Shown here piece by piece: positions 9,789 to 31,919 of a DNA stretch of 64,000 nt. The notes beneath the pieces are model-generated. The model had not been told where the DNA came from and did not search any database. It saw nothing but the letters and a program-made list of their open reading frames with translations. Position 1 is the first letter of the stretch. The number at the start of each line of letters is the position of its first letter. The stretch spans positions 21,628,573-21,692,572 of the forward strand of contig CM026426.1 in assembly GCA_014871385.1 (NCBI GenBank), in the 5' to 3' direction. The DNA comes from Ceratodon purpureus (lineage: Eukaryota; Streptophyta; Bryopsida; Pseudoditrichales; Ditrichaceae). A program made the position numbers and the translations under genes.

Positions 9789-11861
9789 TCAGGGGAAAAG
9801 CCTCTTGTTGAGTAAGTTGAAGGCACAACTCTGCGTGTTCACCGGGGGATCAAGGTAAGTGTAGGAACTGAAACTGGTCAGCAGGGTCTCCTCGGTCACC
9901 TTCTTCTCGAAAGTTCCATCCATCAAATAATCGTCCACACGCTCCTTGAGATTGTCAAACATCAGCTGCGGCTCGTGATGCATAGCCATCAGCACGCTCG
10001 CCAAGTTCTGACCTGGGAGAAACTTGGAAATACGGAAACCAACGGCGCTCTTGGATGGGACAACGTGAATGACATGGGGATTGCCAAACAAGTTATGCAT
10101 GCTTCCCAGCACCTCCTGGTAGGCACCACCGAGGAACATGCCCATGTAGTAGGGTTTGCCACATTCTAGCTCGTGGACGGGCAGGTGCTTCGCGGTCTCG
10201 GAGCCGAGCTTATCGTTCCCGATGAAAGTGGTGACTTTGCCGTCACTGTCACAGGTGAGATCGGAGAGAATCACACGCTCAGTGGGCTCGCACTCCAGAC
10301 GATGCAGTGGAACAAAGGGGAAAAGCTGGCCAATTGCCCAACTATCTGGAATGGACTTGAAGATGGATAAGTTGATGTGGTAGGTAGCAGAATAGCCGCT
10401 GGACGCTTTGCGAGACACACCCTGGTCCATGACCTCTTCTGCCTTCTTGTTCTCGGCCAAGACAGAGATGACTTCAAACAACTCATCAATGTCAGCACGG
10501 ACCTCCAGAGTGAGCAACCCCTGCTTGAAAAGCCGGGTACACTCATGTTTCAGCTTCTGCGCACACATGAGCGCACTCTCATAATCACCTTCATCAACGC
10601 TCCTCTCCAGGTCACCCCTGAGATGCATGAGGGCCTCCGGAAGACCGTCAATGTTGAGAGAGACTCCACGGTCGCAGTGATTCCCGCCGTTCTTGTGGGC
10701 AGAAAGAACGTCAAACACAAGGACTGAGTGGTGAGAAACGAGTGCACGCCCACTCTCGCAGCACAAAGTTGGCTGCTTCACATTCTTCTGAATGGTGGCG
10801 TCCTTGATAGCTTCCACCACTGTCTCCGCATACTCCTCCATGTTGTACCCAATGGACATGTCGGAAGATGAGGAATGGGTTCCATCGTAGTCCACACCTA
10901 GACCGCCTCCAATGTCGATAACATTCATGTTAGCCCCCATGAGAGCCAGCTCGCAAAAGATGTGCGCAGCCTCACTGACGCCCTCTCTGACAATGGCGAG
11001 AGATGGGATCTGAGAGCCGATGTGGAAGTGGAGAAGCTGCAGGCAATCCAGCATGTCCACCCGCCGCAAACGCTTCACAACCTGCACAATCTCGGAAACA
11101 GACAGTCCAAATTTGCCCTTCTCCCCGGAGGTCTCCCCCCAATGGCCGGCGTGCTTGGTGCTCAGCTTCGCGCGGACACCAATGACCGGGCGAATTTTCA
11201 ACTGCTTGCTGAGTTGGATAACAATGTCAAGCTCTTCCACCTGCTCCAGCACAATCACGGTGTTCAGGCCTATGCGACGAGCCACCAGGGCCATCTTCAC
11301 ATACTCCACATCCTTGTAGCCATTGCATATCAAGAATGCATCAGTGCTGGCGCTGCACATGGCGTCGATGACCATCAGAAGCTCCGGCTTGGAACCAGCT
11401 TCGAGGCCGAAATTCGTCTGGGCCCCGTGAGACACGATCTCCTGAATCAGGTACCGGTCCGGGTTGCACTTCACCGGGAACACTCCCTGGAAGCGGCCTC
11501 TGTACCGCTGGCGCATGATGCCCGTATCGAACGCCACCTGCAAGGTGTCCATGCGGTTCTTGACAATGTCCGGAAACCTGATGATCAGAGGCATGGAGGT
11601 GGTATCCACCTGGCTCGCCACCACCTTGTGAATAGCGTCCATGAGATCGATCTCATCGTTGGGGTCGGTCTTTGCGCCGTGAGGCCGCACGGCCATGTGG
11701 CCGCGGGCGTTGATCTTGAAGAACGGGGCGCCCCATCCGTCCACCCGGTAGAGCTGGGATGAGTTCTGTACAGACCATGGTTGAAAAGAAGGCTTCACGC
11801 AGAGAGAACTGGTGAGCTCGAAAGAAGGGTCAAAGAGCATGGGGTCTGCTAGCGGGGGCAT
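9789..11861 (-). CDS. ADC: arginine decarboxylase, biosynthetic (SpeA-type), complete
   Basis: Converts arginine to agmatine with pyridoxal phosphate, the entry to putrescine and polyamines in plants. The 690-residue ORF has no introns, as is usual for plant ADC coding regions, and is close to the family length of about 700. Landmarks: VDGWGAPFF near residue 40 at the start of the conserved core; PVKCNPD with PLP lysine K131; HFHIGSQ at 278-284; the phosphate-binding IDIGGG near 315-320; CESGRALVSHHS around 368-378; DLTCDSDGK with active-site cysteine C537; and MFLGGAYQEVLGSMHNLFG near the C terminus. The ATG at 11861 gives an N terminus that fits other plant ADCs (LYRVDGWGAP after about 37 residues). 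No break is seen. Its GC content is higher than the surroundings. It is the only clear host gene of the window. Some plant ADCs are reported in plastids; no strong transit peptide is evident here. Confidence 0.97.
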   Translation of the reverse strand: MPPLADPMLFDPSFELTSSLCVKPSFQPWSVQNSSQLYRVDGWGAPFFKINARGHMAVRPHGAKTDPNDEIDLMDAIHKVVASQVDTTSMPLIIRFPDIVKNRMDTLQVAFDTGIMRQRYRGRFQGVFPVKCNPDRYLIQEIVSHGAQTNFGLEAGSKPELLMVIDAMCSASTDAFLICNGYKDVEYVKMALVARRIGLNTVIVLEQVEELDIVIQLSKQLKIRPVIGVRAKLSTKHAGHWGETSGEKGKFGLSVSEIVQVVKRLRRVDMLDCLQLLHFHIGSQIPSLAIVREGVSEAAHIFCELALMGANMNVIDIGGGLGVDYDGTHSSSSDMSIGYNMEEYAETVVEAIKDATIQKNVKQPTLCCESGRALVSHHSVLVFDVLSAHKNGGNHCDRGVSLNIDGLPEALMHLRGDLERSVDEGDYESALMCAQKLKHECTRLFKQGLLTLEVRADIDELFEVISVLAENKKAEEVMDQGVSRKASSGYSATYHINLSIFKSIPDSWAIGQLFPFVPLHRLECEPTERVILSDLTCDSDGKVTTFIGNDKLGSETAKHLPVHELECGKPYYMGMFLGGAYQEVLGSMHNLFGNPHVIHVVPSKSAVGFRISKFLPGQNLASVLMAMHHEPQLMFDNLKERVDDYLMDGTFEKKVTEETLLTSFSSYTYLDPPVNTQSCAFNLLNKRLFP

Positions 11862-12252
11862 TTTTTCCTTCTTGAAGATGGGTGCAGAATACGACGCAGC
11901 ACGCTCCGGGCTAGCAGCCGAGGCCGCAGCCTCGGCTCGACCGCTACTGAATCAATTTTCTAAAGGCTGAGTGGAACCTGAGAGGGAAAGAGCAATAACG
12001 GTAGCAAACACTAGATTGCTTGAGGTCGCCAGCAGGGCTGTCTGCTAATCCCAAAGAGATAAAAACCCGAAAACCTGGTCCCACACACACAACCCCCCCT
12101 GACTCCTCACGCCACACCACACCACCACGAAACCCACTTCCGAAACAATGCAACCCCGCCAACCCAACTCACCCGCCGCACCAAAACACACAAAACTCCC
12201 CCAAAAACAAATGGGTTTTCGAGATTTTTCCGGAACTCAACCTCCTCTCCCG

Positions 12253-26580: not shown

Positions 26581-26719
26581 CACTAGTGGAAAAGGTGTAC
26601 AACTATACTAATGAAGAAGACCAAAATGTATCCAATTATATCAAAAAATATTTTTTTGGTGTAATTGAACACAATTTGGTGTTCTTCATTGGTATAGTTG
26701 TTCACCTTTTCCACTATTG
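26581..26719. mobile_element. CACTA-type MITE, 139 bp, GAG target duplication
   Basis: A foldback element that starts CACTAGTGGAAAAGGTGTAC and ends with the complementary arm closing in CACTATTG (one change in the terminus). GAG flanks both sides (26578-26580 and 26720-26722), the 3-bp duplication typical of CACTA. The arms pair over most of their length. Its end matches the large element ending at 8809, so that element or a close relative is the probable source of transposase. Confidence 0.85.
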
Positions 26720-27283
26720 GAGAAATCATCTTATATGGTATTGGTCTATTCTTAACCCATGACCGCCCAAGCGGACATATTATGTCCGTTCAGAATTGCA
26801 AAACTCGGTGTAGGGTAAACAGATGATAATTCGTGAATAAGGTCATAGAAGGTAGTGAATCCGTGAAACACCAGCTACCGGAACAAAGCGGAGGTGTATC
26901 AAAATTACACAATCCGTACAGTGTTTGGGTCGGGGAAAGATATGATGCAGAACAGTGGACATGGCCATTGCCTGCATTGTCCGAACTGTGACCGGCAGTA
27001 GGCGGTGGTAGGCCGTTTAGGGTGACGTCACTGCCTTGGATCCCAGTTGAAGGCACGCAGAGGAAGCGAGGACGATCGCGATTGTGGTTTAGGGCTTCCT
27101 AATTGTTGCTCGACACCTGCATGGATTGTCCGGCCGTCTGTCTTGAGAGTGATGAGAAGAGCGAGTGGGTAGGGGAGTGGAGGTCACAAACAGGAGTAGA
27201 GGCTGTGCGCAATATCATTCTCGCATTTCGGCAGAGTACTTTGCGCCGGAGCAGTTCAAGGCGCACTACTCCCACTCAAATTT

Positions 27284-27865
27284 TTGGAGTCACTTAAGGG
27301 TTCGTGGGCAATGGCGAAAGGGGGGGAGCTTGGATGTACAACCGCCGAGGGGTTGGTTGAAGTGCAGGACAGTTTGTTCAATTGGGCGCTACCAGAGGAA
27401 GCCTCCAGAATCACTGCTCAACAGATCGTCAATTGCTTGCGGGAGGATTTCCTACTGCAATTGCCCGCGCTTGAGAGAAATCACCGCTGGCCGCAACATC
27501 CAGGGAAGAGGAATTGGCGGTATTTGTGTCGGAGGCAAATTGCGAGGTTGTTGGGTTGGCCGGATCGTGTTCCTGAAGGAGATCCAAGGGGCATTCTGGA
27601 TTTTCTCAGCATATTACTGAGAACTACGTATTGGCCAGCGAGACGTGATGAAGAGAGATGCGAGGGCAGCGGCGGCAGAGCGATTGGGCACACGGCCCAC
27701 ACAGCAGCGGCAGAGGCAGGGCCGATCAATTCCACCGGCCCCGGGCCTTCCCCCTCCACCGATCGCTGCAGCAGACGTCGCGGTCGTAGAGCAGCTCCTT
27801 ACCGCAGACAGAGGCATGGACGCCGAGGCAATGCCGAGCGGAGTCCTAGTCCTCCAACCGAATGA
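27284..27865 (+). CDS. first ORF of the piggyBac element, unknown function
   Basis: A 193-codon frame upstream of the transposase in the same orientation. The first ATG-type start near 27311 gives MAKGGELG. The N-terminal half looks like a folded helical domain (ITAQQIVNCLREDFLLQLP, RQIARLLGWPDRVPEG, ILDFLSILLRTTYW); the C-terminal half is Pro/Ser/Arg-rich linker. I do not recognise the domain. It could be an accessory protein of the element, a first exon of the transposase, or captured host coding DNA. An overlapping frame at 27645-28043 may be its continuation after a frameshift. Confidence 0.45.
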   Translation: MESLKGSWAMAKGGELGCTTAEGLVEVQDSLFNWALPEEASRITAQQIVNCLREDFLLQLPALERNHRWPQHPGKRNWRYLCRRQIARLLGWPDRVPEGDPRGILDFLSILLRTTYWPARRDEERCEGSGGRAIGHTAHTAAAEAGPINSTGPGPSPSTDRCSRRRGRRAAPYRRQRHGRRGNAERSPSPPTE

Positions 27866-28261
27866 GCAATGCCTGGCACTTCCGAGTGTGCGCGGTCGGG
27901 GTAGAAGAGGGAGAGCCGCCGTTTCACGTGGTCAGGGTAGAAGTGGAAGAGCAGGGAGTTCGGAACAGCAGATATGTCTTGAAGGTGACGGCCCTGTTTC
28001 AGACGTCCAAATTTCGGGAGATGGGCAGGGGCGTCGGTGTTAGGGGAACTAGATATGAATTCGGGGTTTTAGAATTTCAATGATGAGAGAACAATTGGAG
28101 AAGGGCAGAGTAGCGACGGAGTTGCCGCTGGCTGTGGTTAAGGAAGGGGCAGAATTGCCCGTGGAGGAAGAGGGAGAATTGGGAGGGGTGCTGCACTTGC
28201 GCGAAGGCCACGCAGGTGGACGGCCACGGAGATCACACCAAGTGCTGGCTCACCTAGGACT

Positions 28262-30332
28262 TTGCGAGGCAGAGAGTGCCCAGCTTGTGGGAAGTTGCGT
28301 CGTCCATGGGATGCTGAGCATGTGTGCCCACTGTGGACTCATGGGCACATCCCGAATCAGGCACGAGCAGAGAGCAGCGGAGCTCGCACAGAGGACTGGC
28401 TCACGACAGTCACCAATTTGGCCGACGTCTACATGCCTGACGTGGAGGTGTCTATGGAGGGTGCAGGTACTTCCAATGATGGAGCGCTGCTAGGAATCAA
28501 TGTTGACCCATGTCCAAGCAAAGGAAGGCTTGGTCGATTGCAGAATCAAGCTGGCATTCGTGAATTCCAGTCTCCGCCACTTGCTGCGGCTTAGTTTGAG
28601 GCAGAACTGGGAGGGTGGAGTACGGATTCGGTGGACACCGCCTGAGAGGCAACCTTTGAAGATTTCAAGGGCTTTACATGTAATTCATCTGAAGACGAGA
28701 ACTCTGATTGGTTATTAGATGAGGGAGATGATCCAGGGATTGAGGAGGCTTTCGACATTGAGGAGTACACCGAGTTCACCTATGTTGATGTAGACCAACA
28801 TGGTGCCAAGGAGAGAATTTGGCATTTGTGTCGGGATGAGGAGTGGGATGAGTCTCAGTCCTTCCTAGACGGCAATCGAAGTGGCTTCACAGGACCCCAT
28901 CAAGGCCTAACACAACGAGGGACTCGGAACAGACGGAGGGCACGGTCGTTTTTTGACATGTGGTGGGATGATAGAAGCATTGAGTGGCTTGTAAGGGAAA
29001 CGAACACCTACGCTTCACAGCTATGTACGAATCATAACGACCCGAGGAGGAGGGGTCGACCTGCTGGTTTGAACGAAGGGCCGGGCTGGGTGCCTACAAC
29101 TGCCGTGGAGCTGCGTGCCTGGCTTGGAGTAGCCATCCTCATGGGCCTGAAACAAATGTCTGATATTCGGGCGTACTGGCGATCAGAGGCTTTTTGGCAC
29201 TGTGGGATCATACCGAAAGTGTTCACCAGGAACCGATTTGAGTCTTTGCTCCGTTGCCTTCACTGTGTAGACAATTCCACAGTTCTTTCTCGGGATGATG
29301 CAGAGTACAATAAAATCCACAAGGTTAGGTGGGTTCTAGAAACAATTTGTAGAAGTCTCTCAAGTGGTATACAACCCTGAAAAGATCATTACCTGTGATG
29401 AAATCATGATTTCCTAGAGGGGTTTCAGATCGCCAATACGACAGTATATTCCAGCGAAACCCACTTGGTACGGGTTCAAAATATGGGAAGCCGTTTGTAG
29501 CCAGAGCCGGTACATTTATAACATCATACCGTATCTTGGCAAGGGTGGCAAGAAGGCAGAAGCTGGACTTGAAGAAAGAGTTGTGCATCAACTGACAGCC
29601 GACTTGGAGCACAAGAGTCACACCATTTGCTCTGACAATTTCTTTACATCACCGCAGTTATTTGATGCTCTGTAGAGGCCTGGCATTTATGCCACTAGCA
29701 CTGTGAAGGGTCGCACAATTGGCTTCCCGTTAGTCTTGTGTGGGTACACGAAGGAAGAGCACCAGAGATCCACCATGTTCTGGTCAATGCATTCAAGCAA
29801 GCGGATAGCAGCCACTACGTGGTACGACTCCAAACCGGTCTCATTTTTGTCCACTTCGGCTGATCCGGTTGGCGAGGCCGTGGCTCTACGGTGGATCAAG
29901 GGTGTGCGAGAGGAGGTTCCCACAACACCCCAGCGGGTCGAGTATCAAGCCCACATGAGAGGTCTGGACCTTGTGGATCAGATGAGGCGCGACTATACCG
30001 TGCAATTCCACTCGAACAAGTGGTCGCATAAACTATTTTTCTTCGCAGTGGATTCCTGGCTTCAAAACGCATAGGTCTGTTATCGGGCTGATCGAGCTGC
30101 TCGTGAAGAAGACCCGGGGGAGCGATTGCAGTTCCACTACAGCTTGGCTTGCGAGCTCATACTCCCAAAGATTGCCCAACCACGTACATGCTGCCCACAT
30201 AACCGCCGACCGAATGCTGTGCATTACACTGAGACTCATCCAACTCTAAGGCGCCAGTGTTGTCTCTGTTCTAAGAAGCAACGGCAATATTGTGCAGCTT
30301 GTGGAGCCTTCGTCTGTGAAGGTGCTTTCTGA
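28262..30332 (+). pseudogene. piggyBac-type (DDE_Tnp_1_7) transposase, inactivated
   Basis: The domain catalyses cut-and-paste at TTAA. Order: a Cys/His motif CPACGKLRRPWDAEHVC near 28270; an acidic stretch; the DDE_Tnp_1_7 core from about 28940 (FFDMWWDDRSIEWLVRETN, ELRAWLGVAILMGLK, AYWRSEAFWHCGIIP); first Asp in IITCDE (29397-29399); RQYIPAKPTWYGFK; second Asp in CSDNFFTS (29634-29636); third Asp in WYDSKPVSFLST (29826-29828); GLDLVDQMRRDYT; and a C-terminal cysteine-rich finger RQCCLCSKKQRQYCAACGAF (about 30255-30320). Breaks: in-frame stops at 28592, 28643, 29415, 29673 and 30072, and one frameshift at about 29340-29380. All three catalytic Asp codons remain. An AATAAA signal follows at 30741. 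Confidence 0.9.
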
Positions 30333-30740
30333 AAGCGCATACTCAGAAGAAATGGGCCCTTCGTTGCAATGGACGCTAATTTTGCATGTGTGTTTTTGTA
30401 GCCTCAGTACGCGCCAGGAGGACTTCCGAGGTAGATTCTGGTTCGCTAAACCACAGCGGCCGTCGGCGAAGGATCCTACCTCCGAACTACAAGCCGCCGT
30501 CCCATGTGCACATCGACTGGGGTGACTTGTGGGGTTGGAGCCCGCCGTCACTTCCCACATCCGAGCTCTGAATCAAGCTGGCGAGGGAGCCTTCGAATTC
30601 TAACCACTGCAGAGCCGAGTGACGCGCGAGGCAATGGCAAGGTGTTCTGGTGCACGCCAAGCTCCTTAGGTGGTTTGAATGCTGAGCGGTAGTTTGGCCT
30701 GTCTTGTTTTGGCAAGGTTGTACGTGTTTGATGAACTTGC

Positions 30741-30746
30741 AATAAA
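30741..30746 (+). terminator. polyadenylation signal of the piggyBac transposase
   Basis: AATAAA followed by an A run, about 410 bases after the transposase C terminus and inside the element. Confidence 0.5.
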
Positions 30747-31579
30747 AAAAAAATTGAAAATCCATTTCGTCAAATTGTTAGGTCGTTGGGACATTTGCGT
30801 CAGCGGCTGTAGTCCATTCCTTCGATGTGTACGACCCGGTTGCCCTCGGTTCCCAGACCCTAAAGTGCATGTGCTTCAACTTTTCTGCGATCTGTGAAAG
30901 ACGGCTTCAACCTCTACAGGACTCGCATTTTTTACGGGCGATTCCACACCATTAACACCCTAAACCTAGCGAAGGATCTCACAATTCAGACTCTCCCGCA
31001 TACAGAACACTGATCCTAAGCATTCTCGACCTCAAAATCGTCGAAGTTTTTTGTTAGTGGGACCACAATCAATCACTATAATTTACAAATCCACTAGGTG
31101 GATCTCCGTAAATCCTTGCACAAACGATGCAGACGTAGGTCAAAAGTCTATTTCAACAGTGAAGTTCTGCGACTCTGCAAGGGATCACCGATTGTGTGCA
31201 ACCCCAAATTCAATGTAGTTGCCGCCAACAGCGTCACAATGACGCTTTTCTGGTGCGTGCGGTGAGGGGTTAATCCATACAAGGCTATTTTCACTGATAC
31301 ATTTTGAAAAAACTAAAATTTAAAAACTATTTTTATGGAAGGAAAAACTTATTTTTCCAAAAAAATAAAAGAATATTTGTTCAAGGGTAAACAAACCTGC
31401 TGTTATTGTACGGTAATTAGCATTTATTTAACCTGATTGAAGTTCATTGTTTTCAAGATGAAAAAATACTTAAATTCTCCTCTTCGTTGTGGAATAGAAA
31501 TGCTCTAGGTGTCTCAACAAAACAAAAAACAAAGTAAATATTAAAATAATTAAAATTTTAAAAACGCAACTAAGAAGAA

Positions 31580-31919
31580 GAAGAACTCCAGCCCAAAGGG
31601 ACTAACATGAATATAGTGTTTGTTCATTCTATTCACTAATCTGATGGCTGCTGGACAAAGGATAATGAATCTAGAGCTTCTCCCTCCTTTCGAAGGTAAT
31701 CACTTTTCTACACTAGGTGCCTCTACACTAAGTGCTTTGAAGACAACCGAAATGTCATCCCCCCAAGGTCTTTTTGGGTACCCATACAACGAGGACTCAA
31801 GACCCCCCACCATAGTTGGGTGGACTATGGTAGTAGCCACCACGTCGGCATAAGATTCGAACTCACAACCACCTCGATGGTGTGCCATGACTCAAACCAC
31901 TACACCAAGGCCGTGGTGC
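31580..31919 (-). mobile_element. tRNA-derived SINE
   Basis: In minus-strand sense it starts GGCACCACGGCCTTGG and carries an RNA polymerase III A box TGGTGTAGTGG (31908-31898, full match to TRGYNNANNGG) and, 36 bp on, a B box GTTCGAATC (31862-31854, full match to GWTCRANNC). The body after the tRNA-like head runs to about 31580. The spacing fits a tRNA-derived head. The 3' end is not exactly defined and no target duplication was seen. Confidence 0.75.

Follow-up and report, generated by a model that had tools for sequence, protein, structure and literature searches.

A Decayed piggyBac Element in a Moss

The window analysed here, a stretch of 64,000 bp from the moss Ceratodon purpureus (C6:21628573-21692572, in a genome of 362.5 Mb assembled in 151 contigs), harbors a TTAA-flanked DNA transposon of the piggyBac superfamily, which extends over positions 26752-31273 when the TTAA on both sides is included. 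The element is very probably a formerly autonomous, now dead copy from a low-copy piggyBac family of the moss, and it belongs to a population with six or more transposase groups, part of which has been mobile recently. The proposal of the original prediction, a land-plant piggyBac element, is supported by the transposase domain PF13843 (DDE_Tnp_1_7), by a match to the piggyBac transposase of Trichoplusia ni (T. ni), by the moss identity of the host and by further copies in the genome. In kind, the window copy is an ordinary decayed member of a known superfamily, and what is unusual is its host; the host-wide population, with its many open frames, a recent pair and a shared, unnamed N-terminal domain, is of more interest than the window copy itself.

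Ends and Boundaries

Both ends of the element are short and start with CCC. The predicted span (26756-31269) is exact, with TTAA found directly outside of it on either side, and the description as full-length has been borne out in the sense that both ends are present. An inverted repeat of 26752-26766 with 31259-31273 is complementary at 13 of 15 positions, TTAA counted in. Such a short inverted repeat alone is weak proof, because the best local alignment between the two 200-bp ends of the window copy reaches only the level of shuffled sequence (score 26; shuffle mean 24, maximum 40). The ends are above chance because the same ends together with TTAA recur in other copies in the genome, which upholds both the TTAA duplication and the CCC-starting terminal repeats of the original prediction. 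In addition, an 18-base end pattern has been found 2160 times in the genome with up to 3 mismatches, compared with 144 occurrences of the reversed control. Among the listed places of this pattern, which are the first ones only and all have at most 2 mismatches, 91 ends lie on C1-C3; eight of these are directed inward, towards one of 37 PF13843 matches within 6 kb, and one is directed outward, with ∼0.25 expected per direction, so that end pairs bracket the transposase matches. The features of the ends are as follows:

26752..26755, no strand: left TTAA target-site duplication (from the sequence; also flanks the relatives L034, L035 and L036, the last with TTAG on its 5′ side)
26756..26770, + strand: 5′ terminal inverted repeat CCCATGACCGCCCAA (inverted-repeat alignment, ends of relatives and 18-base end pattern)
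26771..26789, + strand: 5′ subterminal palindrome (hairpin; DNA-fold z −2.6, not above shuffles in three relatives)
31230..31246, + strand: 3′ subterminal hairpin AGCGTCA/TGACGCT (z −1.1 in the window copy)
31256..31269, − strand: 3′ terminal inverted repeat CCCCTCACCGCACG (inverted-repeat alignment and ends of relatives)
31270..31273, no strand: right TTAA target-site duplication (from the sequence)

Subterminal hairpins, also predicted, are present at both ends of the window copy; their conservation is only partly supported, as the fold z-scores (−2.6 and −1.1 for its 5′ and 3′ hairpin) compare with 0.2, −0.6, and −0.3 at the 5′ ends and −2.3, −2.1, and 0.6 at the 3′ ends of three relatives.

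Transposase and Its Decay

A Pfam search of the window has detected PF13843 in three pieces of 73.3, 62.1, and 44.9 bits, at a cut-off of 22.4, and the segment 29418-29675 matches T. ni piggyBac (PDB 6x67, E value 4.9e-10). The codons of the three catalytic Asp residues have been located at 29397, 29634, and 29967, as anticipated, and a fourth conserved Asp is encoded at 29976. In the alignment of the intact relative L040, the catalytic DDD triad coincides with that of T. ni piggyBac, where we take the residues to be 268, 346, and 447, and these columns are conserved among the moss proteins. The predicted C-terminal cysteine finger has likewise been placed, by its alignment with L040, whose type of finger is common to nine moss proteins in the alignment. 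The transposase gene starts well 5′ of 28646, further upstream than the first reading had it, with a conserved domain at its N-terminus. From 5′ to 3′ the gene is composed of:

27410..27655, + strand: conserved N-terminal transposase domain (40% identical to L040 residues 76-153, E value 3e-12)
27656..28948, + strand: decayed transposase linker (seven stops at 27863-28139, then 28592 and 28643)
28949..29347, + strand: first part of DDE_Tnp_1_7, frame 2 (PF13843, 73.3 bits)
29348..29369, + strand: frameshift (tblastn frame change from +2 to +3)
29370..30074, + strand: second part of DDE_Tnp_1_7, frame 3 (PF13843, 62.1 and 44.9 bits; match to T. ni piggyBac)
30246..30329, + strand: C-terminal cysteine-rich finger (aligned with that of L040; natural stop at 30330)

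The five stops and one frameshift of the original prediction have all been located, the in-frame stops of the 28592-30332 stretch at 28592, 28643, 29415, 29673, and 30072 and the frameshift between 29347 and 29370; that count had missed seven more in-frame stops at 27863-28139, in the linker 3′ of the N-terminal domain. With all of these lesions, the window copy does not have the intact frame of an autonomous active element.

Related Copies of the Family

Searching the genome with the DNA of the whole element has yielded 25 matches from 19 candidates, among them three further copies that are complete from end to end, one of 4891 bp at C6:91.54 Mb, one of 5110 bp at C4:5.16 Mb, and one of 2841 bp, with internal shortening, at C3:13.81 Mb; they supply the second copy sought after the original prediction. 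A fifth place, C2:2.18 Mb, carries the 5′ end, and most remaining matches are short (<270 bp) and belong to related families; the window family is low-copy. L034, L035, and L036 have the ends of the window element in different flanks, so that all four end-to-end copies possess the ends and TTAA, L036 having TTAG on one side. The matching blocks are 71-81% (L034) and 60-73% (L035) identical to the window element in DNA. The ratio of nonsynonymous to synonymous divergence (dN/dS) between the window copy and its relatives, determined over 428 codons each, is 0.15 for L034 and 0.07 for L035, the latter at a dS of 2.0, which is near saturation. Past purifying selection has acted on the window-family transposase. 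As dN/dS between copies is low, the lineages split while the protein was still selected, and the window copy died later.

Recent Movement

At least one moss piggyBac group has moved recently, as judged from the sequence of the L040 (C9) and L041 (C10) copies, which are 99.08% identical over 3904 bp in unmatched flanks; the match stops at TTAA plus two bases that agree by chance. L038 and L039 constitute an older pair, with 92.6% and 82.4% identity in two long blocks. L040 is inserted in a repeat, and its joined flanks span the junction at 38 other places in the genome, among 40 scored of 488 candidates, the other two being the halves of L040 itself. In nine of ten loci fetched, TTAA is present at the exact insertion point, and in one (L050) it is shifted by one base. 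These empty sites, which are unoccupied copies of a host repeat and not excision footprints, are good evidence of TTAA duplication for the L040 family rather than for the window copy.

The piggyBac Population of the Genome

Of the 998 first-look candidates that a genome search with PF13843 has given, 116 were scored, and all 116 exceeded the cut-off, the unscored candidates not being confirmed copies. The scored domains are distributed over all of C1-C13, plus C53, and scored relatives reach 253-289 bits. In 93 of the 116, the match contains no stop, and for 54 of these 93 the surrounding frame is 900 aa or longer. Six groups can be distinguished among thirteen sampled moss transposases, with 32-45% identity between and 53-91% within groups. 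When compared with T. ni piggyBac and piggyBat, the moss proteins show 23-28% identity; these two animal PDB sequences constitute the whole of the comparison outside the moss. What appears to be a tandem array that includes a TTAACCCCTAAACGCCCA-type end has further been observed at C1:7053283-7118201, where the + strand bears eight piggyBac-like ends and five of these are regularly spaced at ∼3.88 kb.

In L040, the N-terminal domain and the DDE domain are joined in one open frame of 1073 aa. An alignment of the N-terminal domain with eight members, two of them near-identical, has 11 invariant columns; Pfam and PDB-sequence searches with the domain have found nothing convincing, and NCBIfam has given no match on three full proteins. 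The domain has 150 scored matches in the genome. A comparison of 149 of these matches with the positions of the 116 DDE matches has placed the domain on the same strand and 1.1-2.8 kb upstream in 30 of the 116, with ∼0.14 expected by chance, and it has not been encountered in any other arrangement within 6 kb of the DDE matches. The domain is thus a standard component of some, though not necessarily all, of the moss piggyBac families; at a guess, it might serve as an accessory module that binds DNA (the ends) or partner proteins. A different architecture has been noticed in L062 (C2:10599000-10602600), a piggyBac transposase with a 1144-aa open stretch, whose long, RG-rich, low-complexity N-terminal half is by eye unlike the domain of the window family.

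Host and Chromosomal Setting

The genome contains a LEAFY gene, recovered as the best of seven SAM_LFY matches. Its DNA-binding domain is matched best by 4bhk with 239 bits (178 bits for the next chain), which is labelled FLORICAULA/LEAFY homolog 1 in the search output and which we take to be a Physcomitrium patens protein. LEAFY is not known outside land plants and the algae related to them, and on the basis of this sequence the host can be designated a moss. C6 comprises 110.5 Mb, or 30.5% of the assembly. Genome sizes of 358 and 349.5 Mb have been given for C. purpureus (PMC13120521, in excerpt), with U and V chromosomes that each exceed 100 Mb and account for about 30% of a 360-Mb genome (PMC8000587, in excerpt). 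The assembly size and its giant chromosome fit these figures, and C6 is probably a U/V sex chromosome. The scored piggyBac domains on C6 (19 of 116) are fewer than predicted from its share of 30.5% of length (binomial p 8e-4), an under-representation to be read with the fact that the sample favours high-scoring copies.

Directly to the left of the element (26581-26719) there is a ∼139-bp palindromic repeat resembling a miniature inverted-repeat transposable element, with many genome copies on both strands at 79-87%, and the right flank (about 31571-31673) contains a dispersed repeat whose copies on many contigs are mostly 86-91% identical. Elsewhere in the window, a CACTA-type transposase tnp2 (PF02992, 236.7 bits) is encoded at 391-2043 on the minus strand, and a 720-codon open frame at 9789-11951, also on the minus strand, encodes an ornithine/arginine decarboxylase (PF02784) and is likely a host gene.

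Origin of the Window Element

Following the chemistry of the superfamily, the transposase would have bound the element ends, and the element would have been cut out via hairpinned ends and joined into another TTAA, leaving donor sites with a single clean TTAA. The window copy very probably inserted into the 110.5-Mb chromosome and then decayed. It is part of a large, heterogeneous population with six or more transposase groups, in which many, although not all sampled, members carry the extra conserved N-terminal domain. Some observations weigh against this picture. The fold strength of the 5′ hairpin is not conserved among the three relatives. The terminal motif of the window family is CCCA/CCCC and not the CCYT with which, according to PMC10175614, the short inverted ends (12-19 bp) of the superfamily start; the L040 family (CCCT) fits. 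For 86 of the 116 scored DDE domains, no N-terminal domain has been detected nearby, and recent movement is supported by one closely similar pair (L040/L041). Finally, the empty TTAA site that was expected for the window insertion has not been found in its own genome, where none of 57 matches to the joined flanks spans the junction.

Regarding the source of the moss elements, a recent acquisition by horizontal transfer from animals or fungi is unlikely. Such a transfer would agree with the patchy reports of the superfamily in plants (literature in excerpt), but the existence of at least six groups at 32-45% identity, together with a dS of up to 2 within the window family, points to long residence or several old entries. 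One scan each of viral contigs and of prokaryotic genome contigs with a transposase alignment has returned no relatives. The tree of the transposases includes only two animal sequences. A further proposal is that mosses hold an old, diversified piggyBac branch of their own, with transposases of up to 900-1200 residues, an N-terminal domain unmatched in Pfam-A, purifying selection and recent movement; we put this forward tentatively, at slightly less than even chances.

As to the identity of the window element, a domesticated, piggyBac-derived host gene would be compatible with the low copy number of the family and the low dN/dS between copies. This is very improbable, since both ends and the TTAA duplications are retained, as in three copies at other sites, and the reading frame is destroyed. 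Contamination by animal or fungal DNA, of the contig or of a piece of it, could be suspected from the fact that piggyBac is best known from animals (PMC12732532, in excerpt). It is of negligible probability and can be regarded as excluded, as the window copy lies inside a 110.5-Mb contig, the LEAFY of the genome is moss-like, scored piggyBac domains are spread over all of C1-C13, further family copies lie on C6, C4, and C3, and the six moss groups are 32-45% identical mutually and only 23-28% to the two animal proteins. Equally improbable is Lanisha, another DNA transposon superfamily, which is cut-and-paste and whose wider group has 2-5 bp duplications compatible with the 4-bp TTAA; it is EnSpm-like, in a group mostly with CA..TG ends (PMC12730594, in excerpt), against PF13843 and CCC ends in the window element. 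All three have been rejected as identities of the window element.

Comparison with Known Systems

The rarity of piggyBac in land plants, as stated by the original prediction, fits the literature in excerpt, although rare does not mean never. The five superfamilies described in plants according to an excerpt of a 2008 grapevine paper do not include piggyBac (PMC2528002), and according to a paper of 2025 the superfamily turns up occasionally in the genomes of plants, with red algae named (PMC12732532, in excerpt). On the other side, PiggyBac is counted among the superfamilies in all taxonomic groups studied, land plants included, in PMC4438587, and the PiggyBac entry of a fern repeat table in PMC6890710 gives 1230 and 122,417 (both in excerpt). 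In the literature on mosses, bryophytes, liverworts, streptophytes, and Ceratodon, searched with most subscription papers outside its range, no description of a moss piggyBac has been recognised. If the old moss branch is real, mosses would be a stronghold, among land plants, of a superfamily that has been regarded as belonging essentially to animals, fungi, and protists. Tools based on piggyBac are widely used because its excision is clean, and work in rice employs the insect element (PMC5505980, in excerpt). A plant with a large native stock of intact-looking piggyBac transposases would be a source of plant-adapted relatives, and the moss population would offer a test of the life of a TTAA transposon in a plant with giant sex chromosomes.

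Lanisha was proposed by Maumus, McDaniel and Carey (Repbase Reports 2020, cited in PMC12730594, in excerpt). The length of its duplication does not discriminate it from the window element, with which it shares the cut-and-paste mode; compared by description only, its EnSpm-like transposase and the CA..TG-type ends of its group differ from PF13843 and CCC. It is reportedly described from Ceratodon.

T. ni piggyBac (PDB 6x67, 6x68) shares with the window element the DDE domain with aligned catalytic Asp residues, as well as the TTAA duplication and the short inverted ends for which it is known. It comprises 594 residues, whereas the moss open frames extend over 900-1207 residues in 54 of the 116 scored copies. 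The bat element piggyBat (PDB 9c0f, 578 residues) has the same domain and an aligned C-terminal cysteine finger, at 23-28% identity to the moss proteins. For the intact relative L040, the E values are 1.8e-31 against T. ni piggyBac and 4.1e-30 against piggyBat, and in neither of the two PDB sequences does the profile of the moss N-terminal domain detect a counterpart. The L040/L041 family of the same moss shares superfamily, N-terminal domain, and TTAA with the window element and differs from it by its open frame of 1073 aa, its terminal sequence CCCTTAAACGTCA, and a transposase that is 37% identical to that of the window.

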